56,835 nucleotides of DNA, taken from the IMG/VR virus record IMGVR_UViG_3300038825_001331, positions 1 to 56,835 of that record; one strand, 5' to 3'. Numbering within the stretch: position 1 is the stretch's first letter; each line of letters begins with the position of its first letter. Shown one piece after another: positions 42,424-56,815 of the stretch. This stretch comes from a virus. The notes below the pieces were generated by a model that saw only the letters and a program-made list of their open reading frames with translations, did no database searches and was not told the origin of the DNA. A program made the position numbers and the translations under genes.

Positions 42424-43374
42424 TTATAGCTTGAACCGGTCAAAGATGGCGTCTACAGCAGCCGCCCTAGCTTCGTGCCTAGGCATTTTTGAAATAGGCT
42501 TTTTGGGCTTTGGACGAGGAGGAGCGGCAGTTTCTTCGGCACCCGCAACAATGCTAGCACTCTCTTGTGGTTTAGGTGCCGGCTTTGGTGGCGCAGTAGC
42601 GACCGGTTTGGTTTCTCCTCGATTTCTAAGCTGCAAAACTTCCTTTACGAGCCCGACACTATTACCCTTTTCTAGCAAACTTACCGCAACCTCGACAGCA
42701 TCTTCACCAATAAGAGAAATTTCAAATGCCTCATGCGGGGATATTTGCACATTTTCCATTTCTAGCAAAGGCACCGCTCGTTTTGCTGCCTCCGGGTTCG
42801 CATCAATCCGTTCCTTATATACAGATTCAAACCACTCCATATACCTATTAGCTTCCGCCTCAGCCAACTGCTCCATATTTTTACGTTGTTCAGCTAGCTT
42901 TTGTTCCATTTGCTGTACATAAGCGTTTTTCTGAGAAAGCTCATGGCCTAGCTGGGCTACTCGGGGATCTTCTTCCCCCATAGCCAAGGCGTTATACATG
43001 TCCTTCCACTGTACGGCATCTTCAGTGGCTTGTAGTCGTGCCCTTTCTACGGCTGCTTCATTAAGTCTATCGTAGTGCGCCTGTAGCTTTTCTCCCCATG
43101 GGCGAAGGCGCTCATCAAAATCATCGTAAGCGCCGTTCCAATTTTCCCAATCGAAGTCGTCTGCACTGGGAAAAGGGTTTGTTTCTCCAATAGCTGCCTG
43201 TACTTCGTTTACAGAAGCATCAGCAGATGGTGCCTGTCCAGCTTCTTGAGTTTCTTGCGAAGCAGGTTCACCAGCAGCAACAGGTTCACCAGCAGCAACA
43301 GGCTCACCAGCACTGCTGGCACCAACAGATACTTCCGCATTAGTAGCCTCGGGTACGTTAGTTGTTTCAGACAT
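42424..43374 (-). CDS. Scaffolding protein, 316 aa
   Basis: A 316-residue acidic, helical protein: a low-complexity start with GEPVAA units repeated, then a coiled-coil centre (ELSQKNAYVQQMEQKLAEQRKN) and a basic C-terminal end (KPKKPISKMPRHEARAAAVDAIFDRFKL, in pieces). Acidic helices with a basic helix at the end that contacts the capsid are the hallmark of phage scaffolds. It lies directly before the capsid gene. I use ATG 43374 (MSETTN) after GAGGGAATA; an earlier start at 43386 is possible. Confidence 0.75.
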   Translation of the reverse strand: MSETTNVPEATNAEVSVGASSAGEPVAAGEPVAAGEPASQETQEAGQAPSADASVNEVQAAIGETNPFPSADDFDWENWNGAYDDFDERLRPWGEKLQAHYDRLNEAAVERARLQATEDAVQWKDMYNALAMGEEDPRVAQLGHELSQKNAYVQQMEQKLAEQRKNMEQLAEAEANRYMEWFESVYKERIDANPEAAKRAVPLLEMENVQISPHEAFEISLIGEDAVEVAVSLLEKGNSVGLVKEVLQLRNRGETKPVATAPPKPAPKPQESASIVAGAEETAAPPRPKPKKPISKMPRHEARAAAVDAIFDRFKL

Positions 43375-43395
43375 TATTCCCTCCAAAAATAATTA

Positions 43396-43713
43396 TCATT
43401 CCTCAAATTGAGAAATATCCATATTTTCTAAACGCTCTGCCTGCTCTTGTCGGCTGAGGCGTCCCATTCCCATAGGCTCTTCCTCATCGCCCTCTTGCAT
43501 TTCCATGCCTTCAAACATATCTCCAGCGGCCCCCTCACCTTCTTCTGCCATTGGGTCTTCAGACATATCTTCCTCGGAAGAAGCAACGGGCTCACCTTCT
43601 TCAGTCATGATAGGGGGGTCGATGCTGTACCCAGAATCTTCCAGGGCACCAACAATCATAACAACGGAAACACCTTCGGGCAGAGCGTCCTCAAGTTTTT
43701 TCATATCAGGCAT
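43396..43713 (-). CDS. Acidic late protein, 105 aa
   Basis: A 105-residue acidic protein (MPDMKKLEDALPEGVSVVMIVGALEDSG) with a Glu/Met-rich C-terminal half (EEDMSEDPMAEEGEGAAGDM). The ATG at 43713 follows GGAGAAATT; a GTG at 43740 is possible but lacks a site. It lies before the scaffold under a promoter at 43741. Small acidic proteins in this position may help in head assembly; the function is not known. Confidence 0.6.
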   Translation of the reverse strand: MPDMKKLEDALPEGVSVVMIVGALEDSGYSIDPPIMTEEGEPVASSEEDMSEDPMAEEGEGAAGDMFEGMEMQEGDEEEPMGMGRLSRQEQAERLENMDISQFEE

Positions 43714-46728: not shown

Positions 46729-48552
46729 TTACACTAAGGGACCACCTACTTGTTGAGCCGGTAAACCTCCGCTGCCCGTGCCAACATCCACTTGTCCACC
46801 TTGCATGGGGGCAATGCCTTCTTCGGGCATTCCTTGGCCCGACATATCTAGCGCTGGTGCCTGTTCCATTCCCGGAGGCATTCCCATACCGGGAGGCATT
46901 CCCATGCCTGGAGGAGGCCCCGGCGGCTGCTCAGGTGCCATAATATCGCCCAGTTTCAACAAGTCAACCAGTGCCTGCATAAGTTTTTTCTGGTCAACCA
47001 TCTGGCTTCCTTGCAGAAGAGGCAAGAATGCTTCCATTTTCTTTAGCTGTACAACCGTGTTCGCTTCGTCAGCATTGTATGGAAGTGCGCGAAAGTCGAA
47101 ATCCCAGGGACTATCTCCGTCTACTTTTCCGTCTTCGTTAAAGTCTTTAAACGCCAGCATAAGTCGATTTATTTCCTCATGCGTTCCGTTAGATAACTTT
47201 AGAGGGATACTACTGTCGGCTGGAAGAAACTCTGCATACAGAGAAAGAACTGCCTTTGCTGCCCACTCAATAACATTGTAGATGGCTAACTGACGCCTTG
47301 TGTTTCGGCTTCTAATCGCGGTGTCTGCTAACGCAAGCTCCGTCGCCACATCCGAGGCACCTAGCTCTCCTCGTTGGTAAGCGGGTAGCCCAAGAACAAA
47401 TTCAATGTTCTTGTTTAGCTCGGACATAACTTGCGTCCATTGAATAGGAAGTTGGGCGGTAGGGGTTGCGCCCATAACTTCTTGAATCCGTACATTTGGT
47501 TTGGCGTTCATTGTGATAACCTGCCCAGGTCCGTCAACCTGTTCAAGTGCATCCATGAACTCATCGGGGTCATCTAGCAAACCCTCGTGTACAACGGGAA
47601 TAGGAATGCTAGTCCTTGCGTGCCAGTTCCTTAGCGTAGACAATTCATTTAGTTGCTTAATATTATCGTATACCAAAGAGGCGTCGGACATACCAGACAA
47701 ATCTTCTAGGTTGTCGTTAAAAGCCAGCCGGAAAAAGGGATTGGGCAAAAGCTGGTATGGTAGCTCGCCCTCATACAGAGGCTTCTCTACATTATCAGCG
47801 CAGTGATAAAAGCGCTCCCCAACCAAGTCGTAGACCTCATATACCACAATCCACTCATATGCTGCACGGGCGACCTCTGTGTCAGAGTCTTCTTTTTCAG
47901 GGTCGGCCTTCAACCAGTCTGGGTATGTCTTATTGAAGGTTACTGAGTCGTTTTCTTGATCGTCCATACAATCGTGTCGATAGAACCCGCCCTTTCTTCC
48001 CCTTCTACGCATACGCTTTTTGAACTGTCCCTTGGTAAGGGTAGTCGCCTCGATGATATATCGAATATCTTCCCAGTCGTCTGCGGTTTGATCAAAAAAG
48101 ATTCTATTTGCAGGAACTACTCGTAGCAAAGGGCGGCCTTTCTTGGATGACCATACAACCTTTACAAAAGACCGGGGGTAAATGACTGCTCTTGACGCAA
48201 GGCGCCAAAGAGATTCACCGATATTGTTTCGGTGAAAAAAGTCGTTTACAAGTGCCTCACGCATTGCGGCGGCCTTTCGCAGCTTTTCTTTGCGTGGACT
48301 AATCGTTACTTCAGGGTTGGGAGGGCACACACTGGCCAACAAAGAGTCAGTAAAAGCAAAAAGGTGATTGCCGGTAACATCTGCAGAGCCTCCGTCTGTT
48401 TGTTCCCGACCATATCTATAGGAGTCTCCTCGATAACAGGCAATGTGCTTAGCCCATTGCTTGCGCTCTTCTTCCATCTTTCTAACGTGGTCTTGGATTA
48501 GGTTGGCAATCCACTTATACGACGTTTCTTTTTTGTCGTCTGTATCGTGCAT
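46729..48552 (-). CDS. Portal protein
   Basis: A 607-residue protein just after the large terminase. Segments such as WKHIACYRGDSYRYG-like near residue 36, GGSADVTGNHLFAFTDSLLASVCPPNPEVTI and LWRLASRAVIYPRSFVKVVWS match portal proteins of podoviruses, in which the AVIYP(R/W)..V...W pattern is common. A low-complexity Pro/Gly/Met tail (PPGMGMPPGMGMPPGM) near the C-terminus is also typical. Twelve copies should form the ring through which DNA enters. The ATG follows GGAATACCT. Confidence 0.85.
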   Translation of the reverse strand: MHDTDDKKETSYKWIANLIQDHVRKMEEERKQWAKHIACYRGDSYRYGREQTDGGSADVTGNHLFAFTDSLLASVCPPNPEVTISPRKEKLRKAAAMREALVNDFFHRNNIGESLWRLASRAVIYPRSFVKVVWSSKKGRPLLRVVPANRIFFDQTADDWEDIRYIIEATTLTKGQFKKRMRRRGRKGGFYRHDCMDDQENDSVTFNKTYPDWLKADPEKEDSDTEVARAAYEWIVVYEVYDLVGERFYHCADNVEKPLYEGELPYQLLPNPFFRLAFNDNLEDLSGMSDASLVYDNIKQLNELSTLRNWHARTSIPIPVVHEGLLDDPDEFMDALEQVDGPGQVITMNAKPNVRIQEVMGATPTAQLPIQWTQVMSELNKNIEFVLGLPAYQRGELGASDVATELALADTAIRSRNTRRQLAIYNVIEWAAKAVLSLYAEFLPADSSIPLKLSNGTHEEINRLMLAFKDFNEDGKVDGDSPWDFDFRALPYNADEANTVVQLKKMEAFLPLLQGSQMVDQKKLMQALVDLLKLGDIMAPEQPPGPPPGMGMPPGMGMPPGMEQAPALDMSGQGMPEEGIAPMQGGQVDVGTGSGGLPAQQVGGPLV

Positions 48553-52701: not shown

Positions 52702-53585
52702 TCGTCGTCCTGTATGGTGGGGTCCATGTTTGTTTCCCCATAAACGTACTGCCAGTGTTTTTTATCCGACGCGCACATTGCGTTAATCGCCTGGGTCACT
52801 GCGCGTTTGGGTTGGTAGTCCGTTGTGCTGTATGCGTGTTCCCCTGGTGCGCCAGGGTCGTGCTCTCGTGGGGCAAAGTTTTCGCTGTTCTTAGTAAACG
52901 CCCACGCTAGGTCTGTCATTTCGTATTGTTCTAGTAGTTCTGCGCGTTTTTTCTCCTGCAGTTGGTGCCGCTTTTTATCCTCGCGGCGTTGTTCGGCGTA
53001 CACAGGGTCTTCCATGCTTTGCTCATACCAGTCCTTGTGCCGCTGTTGACACCAATCCCGGTTGTCGTGGTAGTAGCCCCTGCTTTTTTTGTTGGCACAG
53101 TTCCTGCATATGTGCCGGTAGCCATCTGGCGAATACTTGTCACGATGGTAACCATCGTATGTGGCCATGTGCCGAGCTTTGTTGTCTAGTGATAGCTTTC
53201 TGCCTTGTGCCCTGCGGGTGTTTTTTAGTTCTTCGGCGTCCTGAAGAAAGTTACTCGGGTGGTTGCGGGCCTTCATTACCTCGTCGGGTAATATGGTTCG
53301 GGGCTGTTTGCACTTACTACACTCCTTGGTGTCACCGGGCTGTAGCCACCCCGCCGGATTTGTAGGGTGCCTACGTGTGCGTGGCCGCAGTTTTGGTAGA
53401 TTACTATAATCAAACGCCTCGCCTTCTAAGGCTTGCTTGGGTGTCATGCCCTTTTTTAATCTGCGGTAATAAGTAACGCGGCTAATATTATACCAGCGGC
53501 AGGCCTCGTCGATACTAGAGAACGATAACTCTTGTCCGTTGGCGGCGGTAAAATTAACTGAGTGTCCTTGTTTATTATTAGCCAT
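52698..53585 (-). CDS. DNA-binding protein with helix-turn-helix and zinc-binding cysteines
   Basis: A 295-residue protein, first in the leftward arm. Residues ~20-55 (FSSIDEACRWYNISRVTYYRRLKKGMTPKQALEG, in pieces) look like a resolvase- or NUMOD1-type helix-turn-helix. Two cysteine pairs, CSKCKQP (~90) and CRNCANKKSRGYY (~160), are spaced as in HNH-type or other zinc-finger proteins that recognise DNA. It could be a transcription regulator of the late arm or a degenerate homing endonuclease. The ATG follows AGGGGGAAAAC. Confidence 0.6.
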   Translation of the reverse strand: MANNKQGHSVNFTAANGQELSFSSIDEACRWYNISRVTYYRRLKKGMTPKQALEGEAFDYSNLPKLRPRTRRHPTNPAGWLQPGDTKECSKCKQPRTILPDEVMKARNHPSNFLQDAEELKNTRRAQGRKLSLDNKARHMATYDGYHRDKYSPDGYRHICRNCANKKSRGYYHDNRDWCQQRHKDWYEQSMEDPVYAEQRREDKKRHQLQEKKRAELLEQYEMTDLAWAFTKNSENFAPREHDPGAPGEHAYSTTDYQPKRAVTQAINAMCASDKKHWQYVYGETNMDPTIQDDE

Positions 53586-53606
53586 GTTTTCCCCCTAGCA
53601 CCAGTA

Positions 53607-53635
53607 AGAGTAACACAGATAGAATTTAGTGTCAA
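53607..53635 (-). promoter_or_regulatory. Late promoter at the start of the leftward arm
   Basis: TTGACA (53635-53630), 17 bases ending TGTGT, TACTCT (53612-53607), reading leftward. The -10 box is weak, so it may need an activator. It is the first promoter of the late arm. Confidence 0.55.
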
Positions 53636-53670
53636 CTATAACTTAGGTTAGGGCGGGCGGGATAACACCT

Positions 53671-53837
53671 GGCCCCCATGTTACAACGATACGTGACCAG
53701 GAAAAACCTATATGTATTAAATAACATCTATCGTTGTTAACTATAATTAATTAATTAAAAAGGCACCCGTTAATGCGAGATAGTAAATATATACATAAGG
53801 GTTTTCTCTGGTCACGTATCGTTGTAACATGGCCCGT
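53671..53837. repeat. Long inverted repeat with AT-rich centre
   Basis: A 23-bp perfect inverted repeat lies at 53678-53700 and 53808-53830, with flanks that stay partly symmetric (GGCC outside, AAACC and ATGTAT inside), giving arms of about 45 bp around a very A+T-rich centre. The motif TATCGTTGT-AAC appears a third time near 53728-53740. The arrangement suggests a binding region for a phage initiator or regulator, or a cruciform-forming origin. The region 53841-53950 beyond it is A+T-rich with GTTATAG repeats and a TATAAT (53884-53889). Confidence 0.75.
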
Positions 53838-53997
53838 TATTAATTTTATCGTGCGCTAGGTGTTACAGTTATAGCCGTTATAGTATAATTAATAGCGCTA
53901 AAAATAATAGTAATAAAAAAACCCCGTCGTTTAAAGCACCTCCTGGATTATATAATAATGGGGGCCGGGGAGGGAAAGAGGTACCCCCTATGGGTCC

Positions 53998-54219
53998 TTA
54001 TTGCAAGTCGATTGCTATAACAAGTCGATTGCTATAACAAGTCGATTGCATTTATAGTTGGCATGGTTATTGCAAGGGAAACATAGTTGGCATGGTTATT
54101 GCAAGGGGCCACGGGATGCATTTGGGATGCATTACATTTGGGATGCATTTGGGATGCAAACGTAATGCAAACGGGATGCAAACGGGATGCCTTTATAGTT
54201 GGCATGGTTATTGCAAGGG
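53998..54219. repeat. Iteron-like direct repeats
   Basis: Three families are interleaved here. CAAGTCGATTGCTATAA occurs in tandem with a 17-bp period (54004-54049, third copy partial). A 25-bp unit containing TTGGCATGGTTATTGCAAGG lies at 54054-54078, 54083-54107 and 54195-54219, with a variant at 54489-54510. GGGATGCA-like units are clustered between 54113 and 54190. The core TTATTGCAA is shared by the first two families. This resembles an initiator-binding origin. The reading frame on the minus strand here is only translated repeats. Confidence 0.75.
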
Positions 54220-54289
54220 AACATAGGACTTGGCATGTCAAGACACTGAATAAGGTATAACTTTAGGGAATAGGTGTTCTATATGCTAT

Positions 54290-54659
54290 GGACATTTTAT
54301 GTCCGGCTATAGGTGGGCAAATCCCGTCATATTTAGCTTTTAAGACGTTTCAAGGGGTCAAGGCATGGAATCATACCGGGTATAACGTCCAAAGCCAGTC
54401 AGACGAAAATGGGTCGCAGTACAGCGAATAGCAGTGTTCAGTAGGTGAACATATGTTCAGGACATTTTCTGTCCGGGTATTATTATCAATAGTTGGCATG
54501 ATTATTGCAACACGGGCGCGGGTTCTACTTCTATTCGCATAGGCATAAAGTAAACAAGGTTTACAGAGTGAACAAGGTTTACAGAGTTAGTTGGTAATGG
54601 GTTATTATTGCAAGTCTATTGCAATAAAGGCAGTATTGGAGCGCAGTACAGCGAATAGC
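54290..54659. repeat. Mixed direct repeats and palindromes
   Basis: The stretch holds GGACAT-TTT-ATGTCC (54290-54304) and a second copy GGACATTTTCTGTCC (54460-54474). It also has CGCAGTACAGCGAATAGC twice (54415-54432, 54642-54659), the palindrome TGAACATATGTTCA (54446-54459), and a tandem pair of AACAAGGTTTACAGAGT (54553-54569, 54571-54587). TTATTGCAA/TTGCAATAA is an inverted pair (54605-54627). I see no gene. Confidence 0.7.
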
Positions 54660-54668
54660 CGAAAAGCA

Positions 54669-54763
54669 AGGTTTAACCTGGGTTTTCAAATGCGCGCCAC
54701 GGCTATAATATCTGACAAGAAAAAAAATAAAAAAATTTTTATCCAGGTTTAACCTGGGTTTTC
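54669..54763 (+). promoter_or_regulatory. Possible promoter flanked by two identical palindromic sites
   Basis: AGGTTTAACCTGGGTTTTC occurs at 54669-54687 and 54745-54763; its core GGTTTAACC is palindromic. Between them is TATAAT (54704-54709), with a weak TTTTCA 15 bases upstream. The pair could be operators of a promoter for the structured RNA to the right. An A-rich run (54719-54736) also lies between. Confidence 0.45.
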
Positions 54764-54779
54764 GGCCAATTTTAGGGGT

Positions 54780-55510
54780 CAATCGGAGCGAGTGCATTTG
54801 CAATATGCCCATGACCCGATAGATACTGATTGAGCGAGGCGGGAACCCGGTAACGGGGACCGGCCAAGCGATGCTCTTTTAGGTTCTGAAGTTTCGCGAG
54901 TCGAGCACTGGCCCATTGAATCCCTGGATTCTATATAGTGCGCATCGTTTGAGGTATCGTGGATTGAATCCACGGAGGATAGGCCTTGGGTCTATTCGGA
55001 GTGAGCTGGTCACCATGGTGACGGGCGTAGCTTGAAGGCGTCTTTAAACGCGTCACGATACCGTCAGGTCTTTGACATCCTGTATTGTTTGGTAGTTAGT
55101 TAATAAATCGAGCGGCGTTAAGTAAAGCGCACCGATTGGCAAGTGGAGATAAAGACCAGCTATTCCGAGCCATGGCGAAGGGTAGCATATAGGGGCGGCG
55201 CGGTGATTCCGGCCAAGCCTATATTGGGTCAAGTCAATGAAGCGATACCCAGGGGTATCAGTCAACGGTGTGGCATTGAAAAGCGCTCAACGGTGGACGG
55301 ACTAACTACCAGGCAAGCGACATAACAGGCCAGAGTAACGCACCACAGAAACGTCGCAGTGACTGTGTGAGTCTGGCCGAATGAGGTAGCGGGATAGCGA
55401 TAGCAAGCTATCCGATGGAATGGTAACGCGGTTACGCGGTGCCGGACTCGTTTCCTGGTAGGGGTGCTGAGGCCCTACCGAAATAAACCGTACCCGGTTA
55501 GGGTACCCCT
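54780..55510 (+). ncRNA. Large structured noncoding RNA candidate (~700 nt)
   Basis: No convincing frame exists here, but complementary segments are dense. TTGTTTGGTAGTTAGT (55085-55100) pairs with ACTAACTACCAGGCAA (55301-55316) over 16 bp. GGTATCGTG (54953-54961) pairs with CACGATACC (55054-55062). GGCCAGA (55328-55334) pairs with TCTGGCC (55372-55378). Local stems lie at 54846-54857 (GTAA tetraloop), 54862-54913, 55009-55022, 55106-55137, 55187-55224, 55244-55259, 55392-55413, 55423-55435, 55457-55479 and 55490-55506. Two G-U pairs in the 16-bp helix and the GNRA loop favour the plus strand. It resembles in size the ornate phage RNAs such as GOLLD; membership in any family is untested. Confidence 0.65.
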
Positions 55511-55569
55511 TAAGCGCATGAACTATGTGGTCCGTGTGCTTATCAGTCCCCTAACGCTTGAGGTTTATC

Positions 55570-56196
55570 ATGCCTAAACTACGTCTAATCGACGCCACCC
55601 CTACACCTGACAAAAGGCGAAAGCCCGCTGCCCGCTTGGAGTCTATGGCTCGTGCCGGTGTGGACGGTCGCCACTGGTACGCCACCGCCACCGCTAATGT
55701 GGTATCCGCTTCCCGTGTTCTCAACTGTTCGCCTGAATGGTTCGCTGCTGTCTTAGGTGTAACCTCTCCAAGGGTCCACGTATCCCGTAACGTCAAGCTA
55801 TCCATAGCCTATGCCCTTAACGGGTCCACCGCTGGCACTATGCCCATGGTACGTGTCGGACTGGCCAAGTTATCCGCCATTGGTGGCCGCCACTGTCAGG
55901 ACCTTGACGCCATGACTGCCACCATGGGACCCAAGACAGGACCGTTCGCCCGTGCTTTAGCTGGTGACCTCGACGCTGTAGTGCTCGACGTGTGGATGGC
56001 CCGTGCCCTTGGCCTTGACCAGGCACAGTTCAGTCACAAGCCCACCCATCGGAAGGCATGCGACCGTATCCGCCAGGTAGCTGACCGCCTTGGGTGGAGA
56101 CCGGCAGAAGTGCAGGCTGCCATCTGGACCGCCGCCTATCGTGCCCACTATACTGACGCTACAGTACCTCAGTTCACTATCTCACTTGACGCATAA
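55570..56196 (+). CDS. Hypothetical early protein, 208 aa
   Basis: The ATG at 55570 follows TTGAGGTTTATC and comes just after the structured RNA region. The 208-residue product has two helical parts. The segment GPFARALAGDLDAVVLDVWMARALGLDQ and a C-terminal CDRIRQVADRLGWRPAEVQAAIWTAAYRAHY resemble hypothetical phage proteins that have a D-x-W-M-R pattern in a helix-rich, glycosylase-like fold. I do not assign an activity. It is the first gene of the rightward arm and therefore probably the earliest expressed. Confidence 0.65.
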   Translation: MPKLRLIDATPTPDKRRKPAARLESMARAGVDGRHWYATATANVVSASRVLNCSPEWFAAVLGVTSPRVHVSRNVKLSIAYALNGSTAGTMPMVRVGLAKLSAIGGRHCQDLDAMTATMGPKTGPFARALAGDLDAVVLDVWMARALGLDQAQFSHKPTHRKACDRIRQVADRLGWRPAEVQAAIWTAAYRAHYTDATVPQFTISLDA

Positions 56197-56230
56197 CCCC
56201 CTTATAACCCACTCTATTGGAGACTCTATC
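56197..56230 (+). repeat. Repeated early intergenic spacer
   Basis: A near copy of the spacer at 731-762: CCCCCTTATAACCC then ACTCTATTGGAGACTCTATC before the ATG. A third copy spans the window ends. It includes the ribosome-binding site TTGGAGAC. Confidence 0.6.
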
Positions 56231-56815
56231 ATGACCTGGACTATCGACCGCATCCACCGCGCCGCTACCACTATCGACATCCTCAACCGTATCATCTGTG
56301 ATATGCAGGATATAACCTACAATGCCACCGCCACCGCTCCCGATACGTGGCCCGCACTACAGGCCAGTGCCAAGTGGGGGAACCAGGGTGCTGCGTTTGG
56401 TTACAACTGGCATGCACTCCGCCACCGCGAAGTGTGGAACGGCGGTAGCGAACACACTATCTTCGCAGGTCCCGGTATCGCTGCCCCCACTGCCCGTGAC
56501 CGTAACTTCCGAGCCCGTGCCGTTCATGATTTCATTCACCTGGTCACCAATAACGACTTCACCCCCAAGGGTGAGCGCGCTACGTGTGAGCACCAAGTGC
56601 GATGGATGGAGTCCGCATGGGCTGCCCGTGTCAACGTTAGCCGCAAGCTATTCGACCGTACCATCCACGACCTTTCCGACGCCATCGCCTTGGTCCGTGC
56701 CGAGGTAGCTGGACAGGTGGAGTACAACGAAACGCACGACGGCGCCTTTCCCGTTGACCAGCTACAGTTCGCGCTCGACTACCTCAACGGTACCGCACCT
56801 GCGGACATGGCATAA
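56231..56815 (+). CDS. Hypothetical early protein, 194 aa
   Basis: The ATG at 56231 is preceded by the repeated spacer with TTGGAGAC; the open frame upstream is part of the previous gene. The 194-residue product has a helical start (IDRIHRAATTIDILNRIICDM) and a central RARAVHDFIHLVTNNDFTPKGERATCEHQ. The ordered His, Asp and Cys residues there might bind metal. The family is not recognised. Its stop is followed by the first half of the spacer that the start of the window completes. Confidence 0.65.
   Translation: MTWTIDRIHRAATTIDILNRIICDMQDITYNATATAPDTWPALQASAKWGNQGAAFGYNWHALRHREVWNGGSEHTIFAGPGIAAPTARDRNFRARAVHDFIHLVTNNDFTPKGERATCEHQVRWMESAWAARVNVSRKLFDRTIHDLSDAIALVRAEVAGQVEYNETHDGAFPVDQLQFALDYLNGTAPADMA

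Follow-up and report, generated by a model that had tools for sequence, protein, structure and literature searches.

A candidate structured leader RNA ahead of the early genes of a bacteriophage

Results

The window analyzed here is 56,835 nt long and corresponds to a single record of a virus of bacteria. Its genes form two arms, a leftward one carrying the terminase, portal, ribonucleotide reductase, and major head protein and a rightward one carrying a primase-like protein, an exonuclease, a helicase, and a DNA polymerase. The leftward structural genes are separated from the rightward early genes by an unstranded divergent control region of about 2 kb (53586 to 55569), which is the only large noncoding stretch in the ORF map (free of ORFs from 53586 to 55550), and the right half of this region is the candidate structured RNA (54780 to 55568, plus strand), which was delimited by folding energy and pair probabilities and whose ends are approximate. 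The first early gene (55570 to 56196, plus strand) was assigned by family match to DUF7178/phrog_3842, and a GAGG on the same strand at 55560 to 55563 is, by its sequence, the likely Shine-Dalgarno element. The family carries a DNA glycosylase annotation in actinophage records. In Rhodococcus and Mycobacterium phages, the gene also lies near a noncoding region at the genome end and is among the first to be read from there.

When the end of the record (TAACCCCCTTACAACCTACCATA) is placed before its beginning (CCATATCGGAGACTATCATG), the two form the same gene-to-gene spacer that occurs at 730 to 765 and, slightly changed, at 56196 to 56235. This continuity of the spacer across the record ends makes a complete genome, either circular or circularly permuted, probable; IMG/VR itself does not class the record as complete or circular, and circularity is read here from the sequence. 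The near-identical spacer TAACCCCCTTACAACCTACTCTATTGGAGACTATCATG precedes several early genes, at 730 to 765, 56196 to 56235, and 56815 to 20 (across the record ends).

The upstream half of the control region contains DNA repeats. A 42-nt inverted repeat (53676 to 53717 with 53791 to 53832) is 90% complementary around 73 AT-rich bases; it is located just upstream of the leftward operon and is origin- or terminator-like. Direct repeats resembling iterons fall into several families (ATAGTTGGCATGGTTATTGCAAGGG, GGGATGCATTT, AAGTCGATTGC, and AACAAGGTTTACAG) and lie at 53990 to 54230, 54482 to 54515, and 54549 to 54584, and the cumulative GC skew has its minimum at 52791, adjoining the repeat-containing half (53676 to 54627). 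The iteron families near this minimum are a candidate replication origin. Further rightward, two identical, unstranded copies of the palindromic repeat AGGTTTAACCTGGGTTTTC (54669 to 54687 and 54745 to 54763) lie upstream and downstream of a plus-strand TATAAT (54704 to 54709) and look like operators. The TATAAT is a possible −10 element of a rightward promoter with no good −35; it is missing from the output of the promoter scan because no −35 fits, and the scan found no excess of promoter-like sites in this region over shuffled sequences. Beyond about 54630 there are no more iterons, the palindrome pair ends at 54763, and the candidate RNA itself is nearly repeat-free, containing only the repeat D10, of 14 nt.

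An initial sequence-only reading had held that there is no convincing gene in 54780 to 55510, and our analysis agrees. A codon model built from the large genes of this phage gave scores of −0.11 to −0.34 bits per codon for the ORFs inside the region, compared with +0.14 to +0.31 for the large genes themselves, and none of the ORFs had a meaningful match in PHROGs or Pfam. The low codon scores are supportive of a noncoding region rather than decisive, as some small or early genes also score low; the first early gene reaches just +0.05 bits per codon.

The plus strand of 54780 to 55510 folds to −282 kcal/mol versus −249 kcal/mol in shuffled sequences, an excess of −33 kcal/mol. Its z-score was −4.3 to −4.9 (−4.67 in a single run), as against −1.7 to −2.5 for the minus strand, and was still about −3.8 when the longest helix, of 17 bp, was deleted. 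Coding windows of the same length from this genome had mean z-scores of −0.7 to −0.9. The lowest value in a sample of 24 was −2.7, and in a second sample 1 of 26 windows had a z-score of −5.7, obtained with 14 shuffles only; rescored with 40 shuffles, the strongest coding window had a z-score of −3.8. The energy excess of the region tops all 26 ranked comparison windows, and a gap between the strands as large as that seen here was found in 1 of 26 coding windows. In its folding, the region thus lies at the margin of the range of coding DNA, not far beyond it. Unusually strong folding (z-score of −3.8) was noted in the coding window at 42762 to 43492 on the minus strand (gene at 42424 to 43386).

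The region had been described as full of complementary segments. The helices named in that description are present, but their number is no more than chance would give: there are 70 helices of at least 8 bp against 69.1 expected from shuffles, and a helix of at least 16 bp appears in 3.7% of shuffles (P = 0.037). A listing of stems therefore proves little, and much of the ornateness of the region is ordinary. The folding signal is concentrated in three domains (54953 to 55062, 55085 to 55316, and 55483 to 55568), for each of which none of 200 shuffles was as good, and the 5' part (54780 to 54950) is weak, with a z-score of −1.7.

All of the structures that follow were assigned to the plus strand. 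The 5' hairpin with a GUAA loop (54832 to 54876; z-score of −3.3, pair probabilities of 0.92 to 1.0) confirms the GNRA-loop stem seen earlier, which is the CCCG-GTAA-CGGG hairpin at 54846 to 54857 (probability of 1.0). The domain at 54953 to 55062 (z-score of −3.8) has four hairpins and is closed by GGTATC/GATACC. A 9-bp helix had been proposed here between 54953 to 54961 and 55054 to 55062; the complementarity exists and extends over 10 bases, but just 6 pairs form in the fold because the inner bases prefer a GTGGAT/ATCCAC hairpin. The central domain (55085 to 55316) has a z-score of −5.5, with −3.3 on the minus strand. Its closing helix, first counted as 16 bp, is real and actually comprises 17 bp when G-U pairs are allowed (55085 to 55101 with 55300 to 55316; probability of 0.98). 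The hairpin GGCCAGA/TCTGGCC (55328 to 55378; z-score of −2.6) contains the claimed 7-bp helix of 55328 to 55334 with 55372 to 55378, which has a probability of 0.99 within 54780 to 55510 but gives way in a longer transcript, where 54761 to 54768 pairs preferentially with 55374 to 55381.

The structured stretch runs past 55510 to 55568, through a 3' stem that was absent from the earlier list of helices. This stem (55483 to 55568) is composed of segments of 7, 7, and 10 bp with internal loops and has a z-score of −5.3 (−4.0 on the minus strand) and pair probabilities of 0.91 to 0.99. Its innermost 10-bp segment includes two G-U pairs, which are possible in plus-strand RNA only. The stem stops one base ahead of the ATG at 55570 and base pairs half of the GAGG, the unpaired probabilities from 55560 to 55563 being 0.33, 0.96, 0.01, and 0.01. 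Pairing at the start of the first early gene is no greater than at other starts in the genome. An alternative small hairpin, GTACCC/GGGTAC (55490 to 55506), is weaker than the arrangement with the long 3' stem by about 4 kcal/mol; a clear-cut switch between the two was considered and dropped, the pairing of 55483 to 55489 with 55562 to 55568 being present in both.

Covariance searches with the Rfam models of GOLLD, ROOL, OLE, and HEARO, the large RNA classes suggested for comparison by the sequence-only reading, gave no match anywhere in the genome. The model of the conserved 3' region of GOLLD (RF02032) matched nothing in the whole genome at E values up to 10 and nothing in 54000 to 55700 with permissive filters. 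ROOL (RF03087) and OLE (RF01071) had no match, including in the permissive search with all families; their single-model runs, in which the control genomes also went unmatched, are weak alone. HEARO (omega RNA; RF02033) had no match, and the adjacent HNH nuclease gene that is a trait of this class is absent, the flanking proteins matching DUF7178 or no family. Nothing in Rfam passed the gathering thresholds; the best match of the permissive search (E up to 10), a Bacillus-plasmid RNA with an E value of 0.52, is below gathering and was dismissed as chance. There are no tRNA genes in the 56,835-nt genome, and the terminator scan found no plus-strand terminator between the candidate RNA and the first early gene. 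The proposal of a GOLLD-like RNA is not borne out by these results: no model match, no tRNA, and no such terminator.

The RNA region had no homologue in the collections searched, either by blastn of phages and plasmids or with exact RNA patterns in IMG/VR and the GTDB genomes. Scans of IMG/VR anchored on proteins (the DUF7178 protein, a 295-aa protein, terminase, DNA polymerase, and ribonucleotide reductase) retrieved one near-identical contig (99%), which ends before the RNA region. The remaining matches were to distant phages only, at about 25 to 45% in one protein, and neither blastn nor single-sequence covariance models of two domains detected a copy of the RNA in them. The noncoding or divergent regions of these distant relatives often fold strongly, reaching z-scores of −5 to −10, and several of them do so on both strands. 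As this strong folding is mostly on both strands, it points to DNA palindromes and calls for caution over z-scores there, and the folded regions are analogues at most. The leader in a relative with the same divergent layout and a distant DUF7178 gene was rejected, with a z-score of only −2.0 and small ORFs inside it. In MW202816, whose DNA polymerase is 33% identical, a compact structured element (48125 to 48345; z-score of −5.8) occupies the same divergent position, lies behind TATATAATAGGGG, and ends in a terminator-like hairpin; it is possibly an analogous RNA.

Discussion

We consider it fairly probable that the region is a folded plus-strand RNA, the one interpretation that best accounts for the energy statistics. 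The prediction is sound but comes from one genome. For the role of such an RNA, we tentatively prefer, at somewhat less than even odds, a structured 5' leader of the rightward early operon. The absence of a gene, the position, the folding excess of the plus strand, and the 3' stem are observed. The element is co-oriented with the first early gene and directly upstream of it with no terminator between, which points to a leader of the early operon and not to a free-standing RNA. The z-score of about −4.5 on the plus strand against about −2 on the minus strand, together with the three domains unequaled in shuffles, counts for a leader, as do the noncoding codon use of the ORFs and the AGGTTTAACCTGGGTTTTC palindromes around the TATAAT. 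Counting against it are the lack of a homologue in the collections searched, a folding excess that is not unique (a z-score of −3.8 in a coding window and −5 to −10 in relatives), a TATAAT without a good −35 among promoter-like sites at shuffle frequency, and a first start that is paired no more than other starts.

If the region is a leader, a promoter, transcription, an effect on translation, and processing would be expected as follows. Transcription would start inside the divergent control region, at a site probably close to 54715, and the transcript would cross about 800 nt of folded RNA and read without a terminator into the DUF7178 gene. By pairing half of the Shine-Dalgarno sequence, the 3' stem could damp or time the translation of the first early gene. 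RNase III cuts long irregular stems in phage early transcripts; by analogy, it may cut the 3' stem, and the upstream part would then be set free as a stable RNA.

It seems doubtful that the element is instead a large ornate noncoding RNA that stands by itself in a new family, is transcribed apart from the early operon, and acts in trans or as an RNA particle like GOLLD and ROOL. Its size of about 730 to 790 nt and multidomain fold would suit this explanation, and abundant phage noncoding RNAs of about 800 nt outside GOLLD and ROOL exist, for example in ICP1 (PMC7567579). However, no plus-strand terminator separates the element from the gene, there is no tRNA nearby or elsewhere in the genome, and no GOLLD, ROOL, OLE, or HEARO match was obtained. 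Antisense matches to genes of the phage also do not exceed chance: an antisense role was rejected on 3 and 6 matches of at least 11 bases versus 2.2 and 3.8 in shuffles. The position, the lack of a terminator, and the adjacency of the 3' stem to the start codon favor a leader over a free-standing RNA, although the two converge if RNase III cuts that stem. That the element founds a new family of large ornate phage RNAs, unrelated to GOLLD and ROOL, which forms the head of the early transcript, is freed by cleavage of the 3' stem, and acts at the onset of infection and not at lysis, would be a rather improbable outcome.

We also regard it as unlikely that the region is a control element at the DNA level, comprising a replication origin and operators, with a transcript fold that is a by-product of iterons, inverted repeats, and base composition. 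The 42-nt inverted repeat and the iterons in the upstream half, the adjoining GC skew minimum, and the two-stranded folding of the divergent noncoding regions in distant relatives are consistent with such an element, but the iterons and palindromes stop before the RNA, which is itself almost without repeats, and the folding of the candidate RNA is asymmetric between the strands. A fold without function, made of decayed or very small genes and chance structure, agrees with the helix count and with the probability of the long helix, but is improbable given an energy excess above all ranked comparison windows, tested frames that show neither a coding signal nor a protein match, and the z-score that remains after deletion of the long helix.

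The element is of modest novelty, an orphan among structured phage RNAs for which nothing so far argues for a new class. Should it be a real RNA, it would join, as an orphan, the few large structured RNAs of phages whose role is unknown, and its position at the head of the early operon would make its function directly testable by deletion.

GOLLD and ROOL are phage RNAs that are often found near tRNA islands and form RNA-only cages (PMC12286853). Like these RNAs (RF02032 and RF03087), the element described here is phage encoded, several hundred nucleotides long, and free of ORFs, with a multidomain predicted fold; unlike them, it matches neither model, has no tRNA neighborhood, and heads an early operon without a terminator of its own. 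In ICP1, the interval between gp139 and gp140 yields an abundant noncoding transcript of about 800 nt (PMC7567579). The two are alike in size and in lying in an ORF-less region of a phage genome without tRNAs, but the ICP1 transcript is supported by RNA-seq and adjoins the lysis cluster, whereas our element has an early-operon position and is predicted from sequence. No sequence similarity to the ICP1 transcript was found at an E value of 0.01 in the phage collection searched. Phage early transcripts, such as those of T7, have structured 5' leaders and RNase III stems. Our element is much longer than T7-type early leaders, and its processing and regulation are putative, but it shares with them a folded RNA ahead of the early genes and an irregular stem beside the first start codon.
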